This document shows positions 15,611 through 30,954 of a stretch of 44,053 nt of DNA, piece by piece. The DNA lies in contig JAGHYV010000038.1 of NCBI GenBank assembly GCA_017743475.1, forward strand, positions 1 through 44,053, written 5' to 3'. The notes beneath the pieces were generated by a model that saw only the letters and a program-made list of their open reading frames with translations, was not told the DNA's origin and ran no database searches. This DNA is from Roseiflexus sp. (GTDB lineage Bacteria > Chloroflexota > Chloroflexia > Chloroflexales > Roseiflexaceae). The number at the start of each line of letters is the position of its first letter. Position 1 is the first letter of the stretch. Both the position numbers and the translations under genes were made by a program.

Positions 15611-16558
15611 GTGCGTATCGCGGTTGTTGGTGTTGGAGGGGTGGGCAGCTACTTTGGCGGACGGTTAGCACAGGCTGGCGCGGATGTGCTCTTCATCGCG
15701 CGCGGCGACAATCTGGTTGCACTGCGCGAGCGAGGATTACGAATCGAGAGCATTTGGTAACACCCATGTCCTATTCAGGCAACTGATGATCCATCGCATG
15801 CAGGTCCTGTCGACATGGTGCTGGTCGCCACCAAAACCCGGCAACTCGGTGAAGCGATGGATCACATACGTCCACTCATCGGACCGGAGACCGACGTTGT
15901 CCCGCTGCTCAACGGCGTTGGGGCTTCTGATCGTCTGGCAGCAGCGCTGAGCGAGTCTCACGCATTGAATGGCATCTGTTACATCTTCGCTGCCCGCGTT
16001 GCGCCGGGTGTAGTGCGACACTTAGGGATCCATCCGCTGATCATCTTTGGCGAACGTGATAACCGTCGCACAGCGCGTGTCGAAGCATTGCGCGACTGGC
16101 TGGAACGCGCCGGGGTACAGGTAACGATTCCGCCGGACATTGACGCCGGGGTCTGGCGCAAATTCGTCTTTGGAGCAACAACTAGCGGATTGGGAGCGGT
16201 CACACGCGCGCTCGCGCCCATGGGACTACTACGTGAACTTCTAGAGAGGCGCCTGCTACTCATCTAGGGGATGCGCGAAATCGTTGCAGTCGCACAGGCG
16301 TGCGGCATCACTCTTGGCGAAGATGCCGTCGCCGCAGCACTAGCGCAACTTGATGCGCTACCCTACGAAACGACCACATCCATGCAACGCGACATCATAG
16401 CCAGTCGTCCATCAGAACTGGATGCACAGAACGGCACTGTTGCGCGTTTGGGTGCAGCAGCTGGCATTCTAACACCGCTGCACACATTCATCTACTCCAC
16501 CCTGCTGCCGCAGGAACGGATGGTGCGCAACTGGCGACTGGACGAACAATCGCAGTGA
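15611..16558 (+). pseudogene. panE: 2-dehydropantoate 2-reductase (ketopantoate reductase), two in-frame stops
   Basis: The start is GTG 15611, after AAAGGAGG. The frame encodes 315 residues, the normal PanE length, with the NADPH-binding VRIAVVGVGGVGSYFGGRLA at the N-terminus, VLVATKTRQL, VPLLNGVGA, GVWRKFVFGATTSGL and a C-terminal SMQRDI/DAQNGTVARLG segment. It is broken by TAA at 15758-15760 and TAG at 16265-16267, with the frame unchanged either side. Around the first stop the +2 frame reads FGNTHV, which resembles the expected family sequence, so two compensating small indels may lie there. Around the second stop the residues before TAG (ERRLLLI) look out of place. PanE supplies pantoate for coenzyme A; another enzyme may replace it. 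Confidence 0.85.
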
Positions 16559-18836: not shown

Positions 18837-18867
18837 ATCACGCCATCTGGCGTGGACATTAAGACCG

Positions 18868-21800
18868 ATGTATCTGCGTCGTCTCGAAATCCAGGGATTT
18901 AAGACATTTGCCGGGCATACCCTGTTCGAGTTTCAGCCTGGCATTACTGCAGTGGTTGGTCCGAACGGCAGCGGGAAGTCGAATCTCGTCGACGCCATCC
19001 GCTGGGTACTTGGTGAACAGCATCCAGGTATACTGCGCTGTAAACGCACTGAAGACCTGATCTTCAGCGGCAGCGGACGGCGGGCGCCTGCCAGTTTCGC
19101 AGAAGTCTCGCTGACAATCGATAACAGTGATCGCCTGTTGCCAGCGCCATATAGCGAAGTGACGATTACCCGCCGCGCAACACGCTCCGGCGATCAGGAG
19201 TACTTCATCAATCGTCAGCGGGTCCGGTTGCGCGATGTGCAGGAGATTGCTGCGCCGATCAATGGCGCCTATGCGATTGTCAATCAGGGTCTGGTCGATG
19301 CTGTGCTCAATCTGCGTCCCCTGGAGCGGCGGCGACTCTTTGAGGATGCTGCGGTGATCAGCGTTTACGAGCAGCGCCGCACTGACGCTGAACGTCGTCT
19401 GCGCGAGACACAGTCAAACGTTGCGCGTTGTGCCGATATTCTCGCGGAACTCGAGCCACGATTGCGCTCACTGAAGCGTCAGGCGGCGCTTGCCCGATCC
19501 CATCGTGATCTGACGGCTGAGCTTAGGGAGTTGTTGCGAGCGTACTATGTCCATCTTTGGTTGGCAGCGCAGACAGAGTGTGCTGCCGCCGAACAAACAG
19601 CGCAGACGCTGGCAGCGACCCTCGCTGTGCGCCAGGCGGAGATGACCGCTGCCTCAACCGATCTTCTCCGTCTCCGGGAGCACATCCGCGCCATCCGCGA
19701 CCGGATTGAATCGCTCCATGCGGAGAGCAGCGCCCTGCACGCGCGCGCTGAGTCGGTGCAACGTGCACTGGCAGTTGGTCAGGAACGACTCGCAGCGTTG
19801 TCGCGCCAGATTGAGGATCAGGAGAGTGCACTGCGTGATTTGGATCACCAGCGCGCTGACCGGCGCACGGAACAGGAAACGATCGCTGCCCAACTTTCCA
19901 GCGCTGAGCAACGCCTGGATCAGGCGCGGCAGGAGTACGCTGCGCATGAAGCGCGTCGCACCGAACGGATCGCTAATCGCGCTGTGTTTCACTACGCGCT
20001 CGATGCTGCTCGTCGCAATCTGGTAGAGATTAGCGCTGCTCTGGGTGTGGTACGATGTCAGATCGCGCAGATGAATGACCAGCGCGATCGTCTGATCCGC
20101 GAACGTGCAATTGCCGGGGAAGCGCTGACAGCCGCCCGCGACAAACTGATGGCGCACCGCACTGCTAGCGTTCAGGCGGATGCGTACGTGACGGCCCTGG
20201 AACAGGAACTGAACGATGCGGCATGTCGCGTTGAACTGGCAATGAGTGCCGTCGAACAGCGCCGCCGACAACGCACCGCTGCCGCTGAGACGCTTGAAGC
20301 GCTGCGTCGGCAGCAGGCAGATCTGGAAGCGCGGTTGGAAACGCTGCGCCGTCTTCACCGTAGTTATGCCGGAACGTTTGCCGGGGTGCGGGCAGCCATG
20401 CAGTGGGCCGAGTTGCAGAACCGATCCGGATTTGCCCTGGTGGCGACCGTAGTGCGTGTGCCAGCAGAACTCGAAACGGCCATCGAAGTGGCGCTTGGTT
20501 CACGCCTGCACAATATCGTCGTCAATTGCTGGGAAGATGCGGAAGATGCTATCGAAGCGCTCAAACGCAGCGGCGAGGGACGCGCAACCTTTCTGCCACT
20601 GGACACGATCCGCTCATGTAGTGCTGACAGGGTACGCCTGCGATCGCTCACTGGTTCGGACGATGGCGTTCTGGGGGTTGCTGCCGATCTTATCGACGTT
20701 GACGAACGCTACCAACCAGTGGCGGAATTACTTCTTGGTCGCACGCTAGTTGTTCGCACGCTGGCAGTCGCCCGGCGCGAGCTGCAGCACATCGGCAGCG
20801 GATGGACGATTGTCACGCTGGCGGGAGAGCAGGTAAGCGCAGGAGGCGCAGTCACAGGAGGGGCAGCAGCGAAGGAGAGTGGCACACTGCGGCGTGAGCG
20901 AGAATTACGCGAACTCCCCAAACGCCTGGAAGCCGTTTCACGTGAGACAGAAGAGGCGCACGTGCGCTATATCGCCGCAAACGAAGCATATGCCGCCGCC
21001 GAACAGTCAGCGCGCGATGCCGAACGTCACCAGCGTCAGATCCAGCGACAACTCGACCAGGCGCGTGTTACTGCGGTGCAGACGCAGCGCGCCGTTGATC
21101 GTGCCGAAGCGGAATATCTCATGTGTCAACAGCGTATCGAGCAGATTGATGCCGAGATGGCTACACTTCTCGATCGCCTGCAATCGGCAATCGCCGAGCA
21201 GGAAGAGTTGATGCAGCGGGAAGATGCAGCGCGCACGCAGGTCGAGCTTCTCCAGGCTGAAGAAGCGGCGCAGCGCACTGCAGATGCTGCCGACGACGAG
21301 ATCCTGGCGCATCTGCGCGCGCCTCGCCGATGCCGAGGGTGATGTGCGTATGGCTCGCGCTATCCTGCACACGGCTCATCAGGCGCTGGCACGTATTGAC
21401 GAGCAGCGTGCGTCACTGGCAGAGCGCATCGAGCACCTGCGCCGTGAACGTGCTGCCCTTATCGATACACTGACGCAAATCGCTGCCGAACATCAGGCAC
21501 TGCTGGCGCAGATCGACGCCCTGCGTGCGCAGATTGAGCCATCGGAGGCGGAGTTAGGCGCGCTGGAACGGCAGCGCGAAGCACACGAAGTGCGCGTGCA
21601 GACGCTCACCGCTGCATTGATCGACGCCGAAGCGGCATATAACCGCGCAATGGTCGATGCCCAGCGTGCGCGTGATCGCCTGGAGACGCTGCAGGAACGC
21701 GCCTTAGGCGATGCCATCGATGTTGAATCCGCTGCTCAATCTTGTGCAGCCCCATCGCCAGATGCTAATGTTGAGGACATGCAGCGACGTATTGATGATC

Positions 21801-22468
21801 TAAAGAGCCGTATCGCTCGCCCGGGGATCATCAATCCGCTGGCGCTGGAGGAGTATGATGAAGCAGCAGCGCGTTATGAGTTCCTGAGCGCCCAAATGAA
21901 CGATCTCCGTGCAGCATCGACAACCCTTAACGAGTTGATTGCCGAACTGGACAAAGCTATTCGCACCCGCTTTGAAACGACGTTTCGTATTGTCGCTGCA
22001 GAGTTCGAGCGCAGTTTTACGAATCTGTTCGGCGGTGGCGAAGCACGCCTGGTACTGATCAATGACAACGGTGACGATGCCGCCGAACAGAACGGTGGCA
22101 AACCTCCCGGCATCGCCACGCTCGGCGTGGAGATTATCGCCCGTCCACCTGGGAAGCGTCAGCAGCATCTGGCGCTACTTTCGGGCGGTGAGCGTGCGCT
22201 GACTGCTGCGGCGCTGCTCTTCGCCATTCTGAAAGCCAACCCGACCCCCTTCTGTGTCCTCGACGAAGTCGATGCTGCCCTGGACGAAACAAATGTCGGG
22301 CGTTTCCGCGAGGCGCTTGCCGGGCTGAGCGAAAAAACACAGTTTATCGTTGTTACCCACAATCGGGGAACAATTGAGGTTGCCGATACCATCTACGGCA
22401 TCACAATGGGTGACGATGGTGCATCGCGGGTGCTCTCACTCAGGTTAGAAGGGGTCGGTGAGAGGTGA
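18868..22468 (+). pseudogene. smc: Chromosome segregation protein SMC, one frameshift
   Basis: The start is ATG 18868 (MYLRRLEIQGFKTFAGHTLF). The full-length product would be ~1200 residues, normal for bacterial SMC. The N-terminal ATPase half has GPNGSGKSNLVDAIRWVLGE; coiled coil, then hinge (~500-650; FALVATVVRVPAELETAIEV, GGAVTGGAA), coiled coil, then the C-terminal half with LALLSGGERALTAAALLFAI and the Walker B CVLDEVDAALDET. The first frame stops at 21342 and the second carries on to 22468. The two join at a short GC run near 21315-21322 (CTGCGCGCGCCTC), where loss of two bases would change ...LRARLADAEGD to ...LRAPRRCRG-stop. Everything else is intact. A real slippage mutation, ribosomal frameshifting or a sequencing error are all possible; SMC is usually needed for chromosome organisation. 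Confidence 0.9.
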
Positions 22469-22599
22469 CGTTCGCAACTATCCGATTGTGCATACAAACA
22501 ATATCTCATTCGCATCCGTCCAAGGTGCTCAATTGCACAGGCGTCAGGGCTTATGGTTGTTCGGTATAGCCTGTGCAGGTGGGCTTCGCCTTGCACGCC

Positions 22600-24371: not shown

Positions 24372-24824
24372 TTACATCAGTACTTCTTTCTTCAACTCTT
24401 CCAGGTTCTTCAGTGCCCGGTCAGCGTTGCGACGCAGCAGTTCATACGTTTCGAGCGATGTGTCGTCTCTGAGTTGTCCCTGGACGATCATATCCGCTGC
24501 CAGTACCAGTACCGTGAGGCACTGAATGAGTTCCGTCGCCGCCGGTGATCTGGTGAGTTGATACTCACGCAAACGGCGCAGCGCCTCTTCGGCCTGACGG
24601 GCGTTCGGTTGCAGCCAGATCAAGAGCGACTGCGATACGGTACCATCCCTGTGTCCCTTGGCAAGCATATCGGCTGTGCTCGCCAGTATGGTGAGCGATT
24701 TATTGAGCTGGCGCATGATCGCCTGGAGTGCTGTACGCATGTGGAGATTGGTGCGCAGATCTGCGGGCGCCGCCTGTGCATGATTGGTCGGCACAACAGG
24801 TAGCACTGGATATGGCTCAATCAT
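24372..24824 (-). CDS. Small helical protein with internal duplication, HisKA-like
   Basis: The protein is 150 residues from ATG 24824 (AGGAG 7 bases upstream). After a ~30-residue proline-rich start, two similar all-helical halves follow: LNKSLTILASTADMLAKGHR with ARQAEEALRRLREY, and LIQCLTVLVLAADMIVQGQ with ADRALKNLEELKKE. The pattern of a helical hairpin with hydrophobic heptads resembles histidine-kinase dimerisation domains, but the phosphoacceptor histidine (HE/HD-L-R-T/N-P) is missing and there is no ATPase domain. It may be a scaffold or partner for a two-component pathway. No operon neighbour is visible. The family name is unknown to me. Confidence 0.55.
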   Translation of the reverse strand: MIEPYPVLPVVPTNHAQAAPADLRTNLHMRTALQAIMRQLNKSLTILASTADMLAKGHRDGTVSQSLLIWLQPNARQAEEALRRLREYQLTRSPAATELIQCLTVLVLAADMIVQGQLRDDTSLETYELLRRNADRALKNLEELKKEVLM

Positions 24825-25157
24825 AATGCTGCTCCTGTCGTGACTGTAAGGGACAGGACTTGTCTTGTCAGCATCATGTTGCGGATGTTCTCCAGTCATA
24901 GTGCGGACACTCTAAGATGAACATTCTGTCATTTTCATTAGTTAGGTAGTATATCGTTTGATCAAGGGCTTGAGCAACATGCCATGAGTCCTGATGTTGA
25001 ACAGTACTTGCACTGGTCCATAGCAAGTTAAGATAGTCTGATCTCTGTTACAATCGTCGTTGACGGTTGCGTGAATTGTTGAAGGATGCAGATAGCGAAG
25101 CAGAACACTGCGAGCAACGCGCGTGTATCCTAAGAACGTCGCGTTGCTCGTGATGCT
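24825..25157. other. Intergenic gap with an 11-bp inverted repeat
   Basis: This is ~330 bp upstream of the small helical gene and the glycosyltransferase remnant. CGAGCAACGCG (25111-25121) and CGCGTTGCTCG (25140-25150) form a perfect 11-bp stem with an 18-base loop, close to the remnant. No gene is seen. Confidence 0.45.
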
Positions 25158-26400
25158 TTGAAGTTGCCAGTCATCGTGCTGATGCTTGGCATGCTTGCGC
25201 TTGCACCGCGCATCATCGGGCTTGCCGATTTTCTCACTACCGACGGAGCGTACCACTGGATCCGTTTTACCGAACGGTTCGATGCAGCAATTTCCGAGGG
25301 TCACTGGGCTGATACCATTTTCGTTGGGCATCCTGCCATCACGATGTTCTGGTTAGGGCGCGCGGGATTGGTGCTCGAACGCACCTTACGCGATATGGGC
25401 TGGATAGGCGCTTCCTCGATGATCGAGCATCTGGCCTGGCTGCGACTGCCAGGGACTTTCCTGCAGGTGGTGTTCGGGGTAACCACCTGGATGTTGAATG
25501 CTGCGCGGGTGTGGTGCGTCCAGCGTGCGATTGTATTGCGACGGGGCAGCGACGTTCTCAAAGGCGCACCTCTGGCGGGATTGCTAATAATGGTCGCAAT
25601 AGAGATCGGTCAGGTCGTCTGGTACCATACTATCTGAGTTACTACAAGTTCGGCAGCGGTGCAGCAGCGCAGCGCATGTTTCTGATCGGATGGGGGGAGG
25701 GCATGGATCAGGTCGGCGCATGCATGGTTGAGTTCACGCCCTGATATCAGGTATGGACCGGTCATCTCAGCGCTCAGACCGACGTTGCAACCGTTTGTTC
25801 CGGTCGATGTTCGTGACATTACCGATCTGGGGAAACTACCGATCAACTATGCTGTTGTCTATCTGGAGTCGATTCAGCGCGGCGCGCATCCTGATATCTA
25901 TCGCCAGTTCGAGCCGATGACTCCCATCCATACAATCACCATATCATGGCATCGCATATGCAAAGATCTACCAGTTGCCGCGCCCGTACCGGCAGCCGAT
26001 CGGCGCGCGCTCCGGCGATGCGATCATGCTCCACGGAGTCTCAGTCGAATATGATCAGAACCATTTGACGGTCACGCCTTCGTAGGGGACGCTGGCGCCT
26101 CCGCAGGGCGATTACGTCGTATTCCTTCAGGTGATCGATGCACAGGGACAGCGGGTTGCCGGTGTGGACGTACCGCCATCTGGCGTTGGCGGGATGCCGA
26201 CTAGCGCCTGGCTGCCGGGGCAGCAGGCGGCTGTGCCACTGCCGCTGTCGCTGCCGCCCGATCTTCCGGCAGGCGAGTACGAGGTTATTCTGGGATTGTA
26301 CGATGCCGATAGCGGCGAACGGTTGCCCGTCAGCGGCAACTTCGATCTGGCGTCCACCGCAATGCGCGCCATCCGGGTGACCACGTTAACGTATCCGTAA
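25158..26400 (+). pseudogene. Decayed membrane glycosyltransferase (PMT/ArnT-like)
   Basis: Fragments in different frames can be joined into one protein. The first, 25158-25637, has a membrane helix, FLTTDGAYHWIRFTERF and GHPAITMFWLG, the first extracytoplasmic loop of PMT/GT-C type dolichyl- or undecaprenyl-phosphate sugar transferases. Fragments around 25635-25930 read LSYYKFGSG, FLIGWGEGMDQVG and ALRPTLQPFVPVDVRDITDL, the usual C-terminal soluble part. The last, 26110-26400, reads GDYVVFLQVIDAQGQRV to YEVILGLYDADSGERL. Most of the membrane region between the first and second fragments is gone, and at least three frame changes are needed. It is clearly non-functional. Confidence 0.8.
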
Positions 26401-26413
26401 AGGAGGACCGGTT

Positions 26414-27547
26414 ATGAAAAAGGCGCTTGTCCTTTCCGGCGGCGGCGGTCGTGGTGCCTACCACGTCGGTGTGATCGAAGCGCTTGTCGAACGAGGCTGG
26501 ATGCAGGATGGCATCGGACCGGACATCATTGCTGGGACCTCGATCGGCGCGATCAATGCTGCAGCGCTCGCATCTAGTTTGACCGTCGCGCAGCTGAAAG
26601 CGCGCTGGCTCGACATGCACACCGAGGATGTGCATCGACTATCGGGCGATCTGCCAGCGGTCAGTCGGCCGCTCGTCCGTTTTTTGATGCGCAGCGTCTT
26701 AACCTCAGAAGTGCACGGTGGCGCAAGTGTCGTTCTGTCGCCCGAAGAGCGTACCATGGATGCGCAGGGATTCCTTGAGCGCATTGGTCAGATGTTCCGT
26801 ACGCGCCCATTTCGCAGTCTGCTCGATACTTCTCCCTGGCGTCACACCCTGAGTCGCTGGATGGACTTTGACCGGATCAACGCGCCGGATGCGCCTGCCC
26901 TGCTGCTGACTGCGACCGATCTCCAGACCGGCGATCTCCGGGTGTTTTGCAATCGACCGCTGCGCGACCACCCGGCTGACCGGATCACTCTTGACCATCT
27001 CATGGCGTCGTCGAGCATTCCAACCGTCTATCCCTGGACTGAGATCGATGGTCGCAAGTATTGGGATGGGGCGGTGCTGGCGAATACTCCGTTAGGACCG
27101 GTGATCGATCTTGCGGTAGGCGATGATGTCGAGATTGTAGTCGTTATGATGACGCCATGGGATGTCGCGCCGGAGGCGATGCGTCAGCAGTTGCAAAGCG
27201 TGCCGGAAGACCTGGTGCAGGCATTATCGTTGACGCTGGATTGGGCGCTGCTGGCATCGTATCGCGCGGCGATCAAGATGCTGCGCGCGTATAACCGACT
27301 GGCAGAGGCGGCGCGAAAACTTGAGCGTGCTGCGCAGCAAACCGGCGACCCGGCTCTGACTCTGGAAGGAAGCATTCCCCGCATCATCGCCGAGCCGCTG
27401 GTCATTGCGCCACAGCAGTTGATGCCGCTGGAATGGATTATCGATTACGAAGAGCGCAATCATCTGGCATTGTTCGAGATGGGGCGGAATGACGCCCTGC
27501 GCGCACTTGACAGGCGCTTGCTCAGTCGGTTGCCTGGCCAGCTGTGA
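26414..27547 (+). CDS. Patatin-like phospholipase
   Basis: The protein is 377 residues from an ATG with AAAGGAGG upstream. It has the patatin Ser-Asp dyad: oxyanion loop SGGGGRGAYHVG (8-19), nucleophile S43 in AGTSIGAINAAAL and D218 in YWDGAVLANTPL. It probably hydrolyses acyl esters of lipids inside the cell, as no signal peptide is present. The C-terminal ~120 residues are helical and unlike RssA-type short members. The PHP remnant begins with a GTGA overlap at its stop, so the two formed an operon. Confidence 0.88.
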   Translation: MKKALVLSGGGGRGAYHVGVIEALVERGWMQDGIGPDIIAGTSIGAINAAALASSLTVAQLKARWLDMHTEDVHRLSGDLPAVSRPLVRFLMRSVLTSEVHGGASVVLSPEERTMDAQGFLERIGQMFRTRPFRSLLDTSPWRHTLSRWMDFDRINAPDAPALLLTATDLQTGDLRVFCNRPLRDHPADRITLDHLMASSSIPTVYPWTEIDGRKYWDGAVLANTPLGPVIDLAVGDDVEIVVVMMTPWDVAPEAMRQQLQSVPEDLVQALSLTLDWALLASYRAAIKMLRAYNRLAEAARKLERAAQQTGDPALTLEGSIPRIIAEPLVIAPQQLMPLEWIIDYEERNHLALFEMGRNDALRALDRRLLSRLPGQL

Positions 27548-28399
27548 TCGACCTGCATATCCACACCAGCGCAACGCCGCACCATGCGACCTGGACGCCA
27601 GACACACTGATGGCAGCAGCAGCACGCGCCGGATTGCAGGCGATCGCTGTTACCGAACACCACGGCAGGCGTTCGGGCAGTGCAGGAAGCGGGTGTGCAC
27701 ACAGGCATCCGCGTCATCTCAGGCGTGGAGATCGATGCCGGTTTTCCCGCGGGGCGGCGTGATGATCGGCTGCCGTTCAAACTCTGGCATCTACTCATTT
27801 ACGGTGCTGATCCGGAACATCCCTCCCTCTGGCGTTGTGTCGTTCCGTTAATGAGCGCAACCTGGCAGATGCAGACGTGTTGCGGCGATACCTGATTGCA
27901 GCAGGTTTTCGACTGCCCGGCATCGACGCGCTTGAACGTCCGCCACATATAGCCGACATTGGCGCGGCGCTTGGACGTGCGAACGATCTTCCTGATCGCG
28001 CGCCAGAGGATGACGATGAGAGTGCCGGGATGCGCTATATTCTGACCCGCCTGCCAGGTATGTATCGACCCCCAGGTGTAGAGGAGATCGTCGTCGTTGC
28101 CCATGAGATTCGGTGGTGTGGCGGTGCTGGCGCACCCTGGTCGCTCAAAGGGCGTTTACGCGATCCCGGCGACTGCTGAAGATATCGCCATAATGGCGGA
28201 GGTCGGACTGGATGGCATCGAAGTCTACTACCCGGCCCATCGACCGGAACAGATAGCGATGTACCATCATCTGGCGCAGCAGCACCGATTACTCATAACC
28301 GGCGGGTCGGACTCGCACCATCCGCACCAACTGCTCGCCCGGTGGCCCGCTGCGTGGTGCCAGGCATTTCTTGAGCGTGTAGGAGCGGTTAGAGGATAA
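27544..28399 (+). pseudogene. PHP-domain phosphoesterase, at least three frameshifts
   Basis: The start is GTG 27544, overlapping the patatin stop by four bases. PHP metal motifs survive in separate frames: IDLHIHTSATPHHATWTPDT and VTEHH at the start, VISGVEIDAGF and LLIYGADPEHPSL in the second frame, LRRYLIAAGFRLPGIDALER in the third, and VAVLAHPGRSKG and ITGGSDSHHPHQLL in the last. Frame changes lie near 27657, 27838 and 28100. The intact protein would be ~285 residues, similar to the TrpH/YciV family that acts on 3',5'-nucleoside phosphates or RNA ends. The reading frame is too broken to give an active product. Confidence 0.85.
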
Positions 28400-28755: not shown

Positions 28756-29175
28756 ATGTCTATGACGACAGAACGGTCGCATAACGGCCACAATGCTGAT
28801 ACAGTGCTGATCGTCGAGGATGACGCAGCAACCCGGCGTCTGTACAAGTTCCTGCTGTCGAACGGCGGATATGTCGTTCTGGAAGCCGAAGATGGCGTAG
28901 CGGCAGTCGAAGTGTTACAGCGTCATCGTTGCGACCTGGTGATCACCGACATGAACATGCCGCGGATGGATGGGCTGGATCTGATCCGAACCATTCGGCG
29001 AGATTTTGGTGATATTTATGTTATTCTGATTACCGCATTCGGCACCCCCGATACCCAAAAGCAGGCAATTCGCCTCGGCGCCAACGACTATCTCGCCAAG
29101 CCCTTCGATTTTGAAGAACTCGAGCGACGAGTGCACACTTATTTTCAGAACCGTTCTCGCCCCTCCGCTCCTTAG
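28756..29175 (+). CDS. Stand-alone response regulator receiver protein
   Basis: The protein is 139 residues from ATG 28756 (TGGAGGGG upstream; longer frames lack a ribosome site). A single CheY-like receiver domain has acidic pair D22-D23 in LIVEDDAATR, phospho-acceptor D65 in LVITDMNMPRMDG, threonine in ILITAFGT and lysine in YLAKPFDFEEL. There is no output domain, so it must act by protein contact or in a phosphorelay. A strong terminator follows. The next gene is another receiver protein with HD-GYP output, and the cognate kinase is not in the window. Confidence 0.9.
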   Translation: MSMTTERSHNGHNADTVLIVEDDAATRRLYKFLLSNGGYVVLEAEDGVAAVEVLQRHRCDLVITDMNMPRMDGLDLIRTIRRDFGDIYVILITAFGTPDTQKQAIRLGANDYLAKPFDFEELERRVHTYFQNRSRPSAP

Positions 29176-29237: not shown

Positions 29238-29412
29238 CCGATGCGCAATACCATCAGTCCAATCGACGAGCTCAATGCAGGCGCCTCGCAGTCGCTTGAC
29301 TCTGCTGGAGCCAGGGCCATGCGCGCCGATAAAACTGGTATGCTCAAAGAAATGCCTGCGCGCTATAATGGCGACTTGAAAGATATGGCATCCACTGACA
29401 AGTGAGGCGGTG

Positions 29413-30954
29413 ATGAGTCAGTCCCTGTCGACGAGTACCGATCCGGTTTCGATCCTGGTCGTTGAAGACGATCCGATGGTCAATAGTTTCTGCGCACGGT
29501 TGTTGCACATGAAAGGGTACAGTGTCAAGACCGTGTTCAATGGGCGAGAAGCGTTGACCATGCTCCAGGCGAACCGCTTCGATCTAGTGTTGACCGATCT
29601 TCAGATGCCTGAGATGGGCGGCATGGAATTGCTGCGGGAGATGCGTGAACGGTATCCTGATATTGATACCATCATGTTTACCGCATATGCAACCGTGGAG
29701 ACGGCACGTGAGGCGCTGAAGCTGGGCGCATTTGATTATCTGACAAAGCCATTCAGCGTCGACGAACTGGAGCAAACAGTGCGGCGCGCCATCGAGTGGC
29801 GGAGGGTGCGCCAGGAACGTCAGCGTCTCTCAGAAGTGGTGGCGCTGTACCAGATCAGCCAGGCGTTCACCAGCACCCTCGATACTGAAACTGCGGTGAA
29901 TGAGATCGTTGGTCTTCTGTGGCGGCGTTTTTCACCGGCAACGCTCTCGCTCTCGCTGGTGCATCCTGAGGATAACGAGCTGGAGCTTCTAGCGCTGCGA
30001 GGAACTGCGTCACGTGTTTCTGTTGGCACACGTATTCCGCTTCAATGCACACTGGGGAAAGAGAGTCTCTGCGAGGATCATATACGTCTTACTGGTGGTG
30101 CAGTATCCGTCCCTTCTTCGCACGCGGCGCGTTTCGTGTTGCGCAGCAACGACCGGATCGTCGGGGTGCTCGATCTAAGCCGGGCGCCTGATCAACCAGG
30201 GTTTGATCAGGATGACCGCACCCTGCTGACAATCTGCGCATCGCAGATTGCCGCATCGCTCGACAACAGCCGTCTCTATCGCCAGTTGAAACAGCAGAAT
30301 ATTGAGATGGTTGCGGCGCTGGCCGCTTCAATCGACGCGCGTGATCCGTACACCGCCGGGCATTCAATGCAGGTAATGCGCTACGCCGTGCGTCTTGGCG
30401 AAGTTATCGGTCTTGATGCTGCACGCATCGAGGCGCTGCGCTACGGCGGGCTGCTGCACGACATTGGCAAAATCGGTGTGCCCGACGCCATCTTGCTAAA
30501 ACCTGCCTCCCTATCACCAGAGGAGATGGAGATTATGCGTGCCCATGCGGTTATTGGCGTCGAGATCGTGCGTGGTGTGAAAGCGTTGCGCCCGGTGCTG
30601 CCGGTTATCCGGCATCATCACGAGCGAATTGATGGTACCGGCTACCCCGATGGACTGTCCGGCGATCAGATCCCACTCGAAGCCCGGATCATGGCGATAG
30701 CCGACGCCTACGATACCATGACCTCGGAGCGCGCCTACCGTCGCGCAATGACGCAGGACGAAGCAATTGCCGAACTGCGACGATGTCGCGGATCGCAATG
30801 GGACGCCGATCTGGTCGACCAATTCGTCAAGTTGCTGAAATCTGAGGCGCAGGCATTACGCCTGCAACCGCGTGTCGCGCAGGTATCGCTTGATCAGAAT
30901 GTGCTCCACGTCCCTCATCAGTTTGTGTCGGTGGGGGATCTGCGCGTTGACTAG
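29413..30954 (+). CDS. Response regulator with GAF and HD-GYP domains
   Basis: The protein is 513 residues from ATG 29413 (a GTG one codon earlier is possible). Residues ~12-130 are a receiver domain (D62 in LVLTDLQMPEMGG, FTAYAT, YLTKPFSVDEL). A coiled linker leads to a GAF domain (~145-295; VALYQISQAFTSTLDTETAV to GVLDLSRAPDQPGFDQDDR). HD-GYP follows (~300-480), with HSMQVMRYAVRLG, LLHDIGKIGVPDAIL, HHERIDGTGYPDGLSG and MAIADAYDTMTSERAYR. All HD-GYP metal ligands are kept, so cyclic-di-GMP hydrolysis under phosphorylation and GAF-ligand control is likely. A short tail of ~30 residues is of unknown use. Confidence 0.92.
   Translation: MSQSLSTSTDPVSILVVEDDPMVNSFCARLLHMKGYSVKTVFNGREALTMLQANRFDLVLTDLQMPEMGGMELLREMRERYPDIDTIMFTAYATVETAREALKLGAFDYLTKPFSVDELEQTVRRAIEWRRVRQERQRLSEVVALYQISQAFTSTLDTETAVNEIVGLLWRRFSPATLSLSLVHPEDNELELLALRGTASRVSVGTRIPLQCTLGKESLCEDHIRLTGGAVSVPSSHAARFVLRSNDRIVGVLDLSRAPDQPGFDQDDRTLLTICASQIAASLDNSRLYRQLKQQNIEMVAALAASIDARDPYTAGHSMQVMRYAVRLGEVIGLDAARIEALRYGGLLHDIGKIGVPDAILLKPASLSPEEMEIMRAHAVIGVEIVRGVKALRPVLPVIRHHHERIDGTGYPDGLSGDQIPLEARIMAIADAYDTMTSERAYRRAMTQDEAIAELRRCRGSQWDADLVDQFVKLLKSEAQALRLQPRVAQVSLDQNVLHVPHQFVSVGDLRVD

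Follow-up and report, generated by a model that had tools for sequence, protein, structure and literature searches.

A duplicated helical-hairpin protein of Roseiflexus and its family, a candidate single-chain DHp-like protein without a phospho-histidine

We analyzed a 44,053-nucleotide contig of Roseiflexus sp. (this whole stretch is called the window throughout) and found that a gene at 24372-24824, on the minus strand, encodes a small protein that arose by duplication of one hairpin of ~59 residues. Our preferred reading, which we put forward tentatively, is that of a pseudo-DHp in a single chain, which docks a receiver and either blocks or dephosphorylates it. The duplication is stated here as a result; the functional reading depends on a suggested kinship with the HisKA domain, on a conserved face in one half of the protein and on the company that the gene keeps, and is qualified accordingly below.

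The duplicated-hairpin gene consists of 150 codons plus a stop. The earlier note on this DNA had placed a 150-residue protein at this position, and the ORF is indeed present; the strand, which that note left unstated, is the minus strand. A ribosome-binding site (AGGAG, 24832..24836, minus strand) lies 7 bases ahead of the ATG at 24824, and CAGGAG was found ahead of the start codon in all seven sequences compared, the window among them. An alternative start at the ATG at 24899, which gives 175 residues, was rejected because it has no ribosome-binding site in front of it. The dN/dS ratios against six relatives ranged from 0.10 to 0.21, which fits a translated gene under purifying selection; five of the six pairs had a dS above 1, close to saturation. 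The gene is single-copy in its own genome.

Residues ~34-90 of the protein are repeated without gaps at residues 93-149, at an offset of 59 over 57 columns. The first half (residues 34-90) is encoded at 24555..24725 and the second half (residues 93-149) at 24378..24548, both on the minus strand. When the 12-member alignment of the family was cut into profiles of residues 31-92 and 93-149, hhalign aligned the two halves with a probability of 95.7, an E-value of 4e-9 and a score of 49.0. The best of 200 column shuffles scored 13.0 (0/200 reached 49.0) and the reversed control scored 6.1. With the window sequence alone, the observed repeat score was reached by 1 of 2000 full shuffles and by 2 of 2000 shuffles that kept the hydrophobic pattern. 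The offset of 59 was the top ungapped offset in 9 of the 12 members, and another offset won in L010, L012 and L013. The internal duplication exceeds chance. Two pairs of motifs had been named earlier as shared by the halves. LTILASTADM (residues 44-53) and LTVLVLAADM (residues 103-112) are both present and stand 59 residues apart. ALRRLREY (81-88) and ALKNLEEL (137-144) are also both present, but they are 56 residues apart, three residues off the 59-residue register, in which ALKNLEEL stands opposite residues 78-85.

AlphaFold2 predicted four helices in the window protein, at residues 21-60 and 65-87 for the first half and at residues 94-114 and 120-149 for the second, with a pLDDT of 81.2 and a pTM of 0.72. 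Four helices were obtained again when the prediction was repeated with the divergent member L012 in the lead (pLDDT 88.5, pTM 0.83). The structure prediction that the earlier note proposed as a check thus returned four helices, the sequence shows an internal repeat, and the hhalign E-value of 4e-9 together with the four predicted helices bears out its description of two homologous helical hairpins in tandem in one chain. Fold searches gave nothing clearly above the helical-bundle background; the matches were sensor domains, talin, designed bundles and an HPt domain, with no winner among them, in a chain-wise fold library where two-chain DHp dimers cannot surface. The HPt fold 1tqg matched with a Z of 11.6 (rmsd 2.4, 105 aligned) and, in a further comparison, with a Z of 11.2 (rmsd 2.8, 104 aligned), values that sit among those of unrelated bundles at Z of about 10-14. 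HPt domains (PF01627, for example CheA P1, 1tqg) are monomeric four-helix bundles, as is predicted here, but the 12 members gave no Hpt match in Pfam and have no invariant histidine column.

Relatives of the duplicated-hairpin protein were present in 12 of the 26 genomes of the bacterial family to which the window belongs. A profile built from the 12 members yielded no additional one at E 0.001 when run against 158 genomes of the class; run against 400 genomes drawn from the phylum, it gave six extra matches at E 0.001-0.01, which were stretches of unlike proteins or non-coding frames. In the searches made here, no member turned up outside that bacterial family. Twelve loci outside the 12-member family (L014, L015 and L034-L043; E 0.001-0.1) were set down to chance once the matching frame had been inspected in all 12; in L035 the matching frame has 78 codons and runs opposite a topoisomerase-like gene, and that of L042 is full of stops. 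By resemblance, we take the rejected loci to include a GAF-histidine kinase (with the match in its GAF part), a sigma factor, a TatB-like protein, GyrA and a threonine-synthase-like protein. Phage and plasmid sequences gave no match to the protein at E 0.01. The window protein had no Pfam match whatsoever. Weak matches of one or two members each were rejected, namely PEP_mutase, MCH, FliX and HisKA_3 (E 1.2) in Pfam, DotM, holA and others in NCBIfam, and HEC-02B and PDC-M02A in PADLOC. Sequence matches in the PDB to RecA fusions (E 0.0012), designed proteins, GyrA and a HAMP domain were likewise set aside.

The halves had been described in the earlier note as HisKA-like and without the phospho-histidine. 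The second part of that description holds, since the position aligned with the histidine is R in 7 of 12 members in the first half and T in 12 of 12 in the second. Position 38, which is R in the window protein, is variable in the family (R in seven, L in two, others in the rest; n=12). Histidine stood at the H-box position in all 30 HisKA domains examined from the same genome, in which 41 were found. As for the first part, the register and part of the chemistry fit, while the statistics are weak and a coiled-coil window scores as high. The HisKA (PF00512) gathering score of 26.9 bits was passed by none of the 12 full proteins and by no half. HMMER reported a HisKA match in one of the 24 halves, the second half of L012 (E 0.16, 12.4 bits); this match begins with E on HisKA model position 12, in a register identical to that of hhalign, and model position 11 would then be the histidine position.

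When all 24 halves were compared by hhalign with the 30 HisKA domains of the window's own genome, the score was 15.7 over all 62 columns, with a probability of 3%. Decoys in this comparison peaked at 10.0 (132 windows from neighbouring proteins, mostly not picked for helices) and at 11.4 (53 SMC windows); reversed HisKA gave 5.5. The added helical SMC windows weakened the HisKA claim. Against the HisKA profile the best three of the 53 SMC windows scored 17.9, 14.5 and 13.2, and the 15.7 of the family is therefore not specific. When HisKA itself was set against its relatives, the HisKA_3 domains, in an equivalent way, the score was only 10.5, which leaves the test with little power in either direction. 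Taken separately, the first half scored 7.4 against HisKA (reversed control 6.7; 7/200 shuffles as high) and the second half 14.3 (1/200 shuffles as high). Mean pairwise scores of the second half were 34.4 with HisKA, 28.2 with reversed HisKA and 25.7 with random fragments (maximum 47), and those of the first half were 34.2, 31.8 and 27.8 (maximum 57), respectively. The pairwise signal is modest for the second half, and for the first half there is almost none over the reversed control.

Residue by residue, the second half carries E/D, L, L, T, D, M and G at H+1, +2, +6, +7, +14, +15 and +19, where the commonest residues in the HisKA domains of the same genome are E, L, L, T, E/D, L and G (the sixth at +15/16). 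The acidic residue at H+1 is E in 11 members and D in one (L010), and the first half has Q there in 12/12. Each half thus resembles HisKA in being a two-helix hairpin of ~60 residues, and the second half further resembles it in the acid at H+1, L at H+2 and H+6 and T at H+7. Unlike HisKA, the window protein has two hairpins per chain, falls below the Pfam cut-off and lacks the histidine and other hallmarks. The proline at H+5 (29/30 HisKA domains) is replaced by S, A or T in the first half and by C or S in the second, and where HisKA has G at H+11 (24/30) and Y/F at H+12 (22/30) the second half has L and A/V. There is no HATPase_c domain, as the ORF ends right after the second half.

The alternative that is hardest to set aside is that the protein is an unrelated helical-bundle adaptor, whose resemblance to HisKA is a convergence of amphipathic hairpins and whose partner lies outside two-component signalling. 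We regard it as possible, though rather doubtful. It would accommodate the sub-threshold HisKA statistics, the SMC window that beats the family against HisKA, the generic fold matches and the missing P, G and Y/F hallmarks; it sits less well with the finding that two programs give one register over ~60 columns, with the E/D at H+1, and with a conserved face that lies on the side of the histidine position. The hydrophobic directions measured from that position also agree (189 degrees for the first half, 200 for the second and 181 for HisKA) and speak against convergence, an agreement that is partly built in by the alignment. The sequence comparisons taken together are suggestive of kinship with HisKA, which we consider somewhat the likelier account, unproven as it is.

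The conserved face belongs to the second half. In helix 1 of this half the mean entropy was 0.36 on the outward side and 0.74 on the inward side, as against 2.10 and 1.27 in the first half and 1.72 and 1.39 in HisKA; each half is represented by seven sequences from as many genera and HisKA by 30, so that the values are to be compared inside each pair, and the faces were set by the hydrophobic moment of each helix. The second half is alone in having a helix 1 that is better conserved on its outward face than in its core, and this pattern suggests a binding or catalytic site; the face of the first half is variable. The outward face of the second half contains T97, Q101, T104, V105, L108, D111 and M112, each found in 12/12 members, and also takes in the more variable positions 93 and 94. 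The segment T97-E98-L99-I100-Q101 (24522..24536, minus strand) has T at the aligned phospho-histidine position, E/D at H+1 and Q at H+4. T97 and Q101 are present in all 12 members and E98 in 11 (D in L010). By hydrophobic moment Q101 faces outward, and E98 points sideways and is outside the outward set. This asymmetry between the halves suggests that there may be one binding site. Helix 2 of the first half had a mean identity of 0.48 over seven genera, versus 0.40 for helix 2 of the second half, with A75, R76, L85 and R86 invariant and E79 nearly so, and the first half is therefore not simply relaxed. If the bundle runs up-down-up-down, helix 2 of the first half would neighbour the conserved face of the second.

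A receiver protein at 28756-29175 had been proposed as the target for an interaction test. The gene there (28756..29175, plus strand) does encode a genuine stand-alone receiver of 139 residues (Response_reg PF00072, E 9.9e-34), ~4 kb from the duplicated-hairpin gene, and the receiver is a candidate partner. Adjoining it at 29410..30954 (plus strand), and given here as context only, is a response regulator with a receiver, a weak GAF and HD_5/HD domains, presumably of the HD-GYP type. With presence defined as a match at E 1e-50 or better, the stand-alone receiver was found in 12 of the 26 family genomes. Both genes were present in 11 of the 26 and neither in 13, with one genome each way: G008 (71% complete) has the receiver without the duplicated-hairpin gene and G010 (82% complete) has the gene without a receiver match. 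When only the 17 genomes with a completeness of 90% or more and a contamination of 5% or less were counted, the receiver set and the gene set, eight genomes each, were identical. A first look counted 8-24 receiver candidates in the genomes with neither gene versus 66-141 in the others, and the co-occurrence may therefore be clade history. In five genomes from five other genera (G001, G004, G006, G007 and G014) the two genes were on different contigs, which speaks against the partnership, although most of these contigs are short; those of G001 and G014 are long (59 to 496 kb).

We inspected six off-contig receiver loci, five from these genomes and one from G008. In L087, L088 and L089 the receiver has the receiver-HD gene as its immediate neighbour, and in L086 and L091 the two lie within about 3 kb of each other; no receiver-HD gene was seen at the receiver locus of L090. 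At L088 (4155-9815) the receiver orthologue stands in a run with receiver-HD and with SpoIIE, TPR, an RsbW-like ATPase and STAS, these four by Pfam. An equivalent run occurs at L089 (148-5705), with SpoIIE identified by Pfam and the others by eye (7 ORFs scanned). These runs possibly represent a partner-switching and c-di-GMP module, which makes a partner-switching or c-di-GMP output a reasonable downstream guess and no more.

In the window and in L016 the gene order is SMC-like (an identity that we assume from resemblance of sequence), HAD, the duplicated-hairpin gene on the opposite strand, a PMT-type membrane protein, patatin, PHP, receiver and receiver-HD. This order is kept in part by other members of the genus and by g5. 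The loci L018 and L021 open at the duplicated-hairpin gene and continue with PMT, patatin, PHP, receiver and receiver-HD. L020 keeps the window order, but no PHP gene was found in its genome; L019 has no PMT match, and L017 has three other ORFs between HAD and the duplicated-hairpin gene and ends at patatin. Of the remaining loci, L022 retains HAD and SMC-like beside the gene, and L025 lies in a different neighbourhood. Several genes in the window are split. The PMT-type gene (24933-26220, plus strand) is broken: at 25496/25497 nothing corresponds to residues 195-460 of the 703-residue L016 ORF, and there is a change of frame near 25943. The SMC-like (18862-22471, plus strand) and PHP (27544-28390, plus strand) genes are split between frames and are open in L016. 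The adjacent ORFs 15815-16267 and 16271-16558 (plus strand) both match one L016 ORF (1024-1971) and are a split gene as well. These splits may be assembly errors or real decay.

The search for neighbouring kinases that had been recommended earlier found them in L024 (6002-9564) and L026 (1791-5399), which belong to two genera. In both, the duplicated-hairpin gene is beside PHP, and the gene after PHP encodes a CHASE3-PAS-GAF-HisKA-HATPase kinase; in the window's genus this place is taken by the receiver and receiver-HD genes. The H boxes of these kinases are ordinary (SHELRTPL and SHELKTPL). Descent of the hairpins from these kinases was considered and rejected, their HisKA domains scoring no better than the average HisKA. 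A second alternative takes such a kinase as the partner, so that the pseudo-DHp would pair with or cap the kinase DHp bundle and control autophosphorylation. The conserved outward face would suit any partner, this one included, but it would be the receiver-docking side rather than the core through which DHp dimers pair, and none of the six neighbours of the window's genus run through Pfam is a kinase; we think this alternative unlikely. Sda is a small helical-hairpin regulator of two-component signalling, a single hairpin that binds kinase, and it reportedly pairs with or caps the DHp bundle of KinA. The window protein would be like it as a small helical-hairpin regulator, and differs in that Sda has a single hairpin. 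A housekeeping or structural role tied to the PHP, patatin, HAD and SMC-like neighbours, with no signalling function, is highly improbable: although the gene adjoins PHP in L024 and L026 and HAD and SMC-like in L022, PHP, which also served as a control for the co-occurrence, is found in 21 of the 26 family genomes, 9/12 with the gene and 12/14 without, and is therefore not tied to it, and the gene runs on the strand opposite to its neighbours in the window.

The reading that we prefer, a single-chain pseudo-DHp that docks a receiver, would work as follows. The protein would descend from or mimic a HisKA-type DHp hairpin, and one chain would form the bundle that histidine kinases build as a dimer. 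As the phospho-histidine is absent in both halves (R38 and T97), no phosphate relay by histidine is expected. Helix 1 of the first half would have relaxed, and helix 1 of the second half would have kept one nearly invariant outward face, on the side that a HisKA hairpin would offer to its response regulator; R76, E79 and R86 from helix 2 of the first half may line the docking groove. The first candidate for the partner would be the stand-alone receiver of the window, whose output would be lowered by occupancy. E98-x-x-Q101 might in addition position a water molecule for hydrolysis of the aspartyl phosphate. Of the two steps, docking is the likelier and dephosphorylation the less certain. Receiver phosphatases of the acid-plus-amide kind (CheX, CheZ, HisKA_3 type) carry a conserved acid and amide on one helix, spaced by three or four residues; such a pair is found in the whole family (E/D98 12/12, Q101 12/12), and as a motif E98-x-x-Q101 appears compatible with phosphatase chemistry. 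The most specific version of the proposal is that of a lineage-specific single-chain pseudo-dimer that came from a duplicated DHp hairpin, lost both phospho-histidines and is now a dedicated response-regulator phosphatase through the E-x-x-Q of one half, with the stand-alone receiver of the SpoIIE/RsbW-like/STAS/HD-GYP runs as its target; we hold it to be improbable in that full form.

Known phosphatases use comparable residues. In the passages of PMC3510030 drawn on here, CheX uses ExxN, CheZ DxxxQ and RapH a single Gln (Q47), acid-plus-amide or single-amide chemistries to which the window protein is alike by its motif; its family has no match to such families in Pfam and NCBIfam. The same passages state that in HisKA kinases the Thr/Asn at H+4 is needed only for phosphatase activity and the acid at H+1 only for kinase activity (PMC3510030), and because of this the retention of the H+1 acid is odd for a phosphatase. 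DivL, as portrayed in the parts of PMC4211667 used here, carries Tyr where the histidine would be, with a conserved patch nearby, and it binds DivK~P. The window protein similarly has the histidine replaced and a patch near the site; receiver binding has been shown for DivL and would apply here by analogy. DivL differs in having PAS and CA domains and in that its DHp-CA is a dimer of two chains (PMC4211667). ChpT, a DHp bundle outside a kinase, forms with Spo0B another point of comparison in the sections of PMC3433190 that we cite: both build a DHp-type four-helix bundle from two hairpins outside a kinase, but from two subunits rather than one chain, and ChpT keeps His33 and a C-terminal ATPase-like domain. 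In ChpT the N-termini are adjacent and the two histidines lie on opposite faces (PMC3433190). Among the matches listed for the open-licence PMC literature, there was no tandem, single-chain or pseudo-dimeric DHp protein.

If the preferred reading is true, the docking domain of a kinase would have been cut free, duplicated into one chain and disarmed, with one docking face left that is visible from its conservation. The protein would then be a DHp in a minimal, monomeric form that occurs in nature; with it, receiver docking could be studied apart from catalysis, and it would let one ask whether phosphatase chemistry survives without the histidine. It would also provide a pattern for finding other overlooked two-component regulators.
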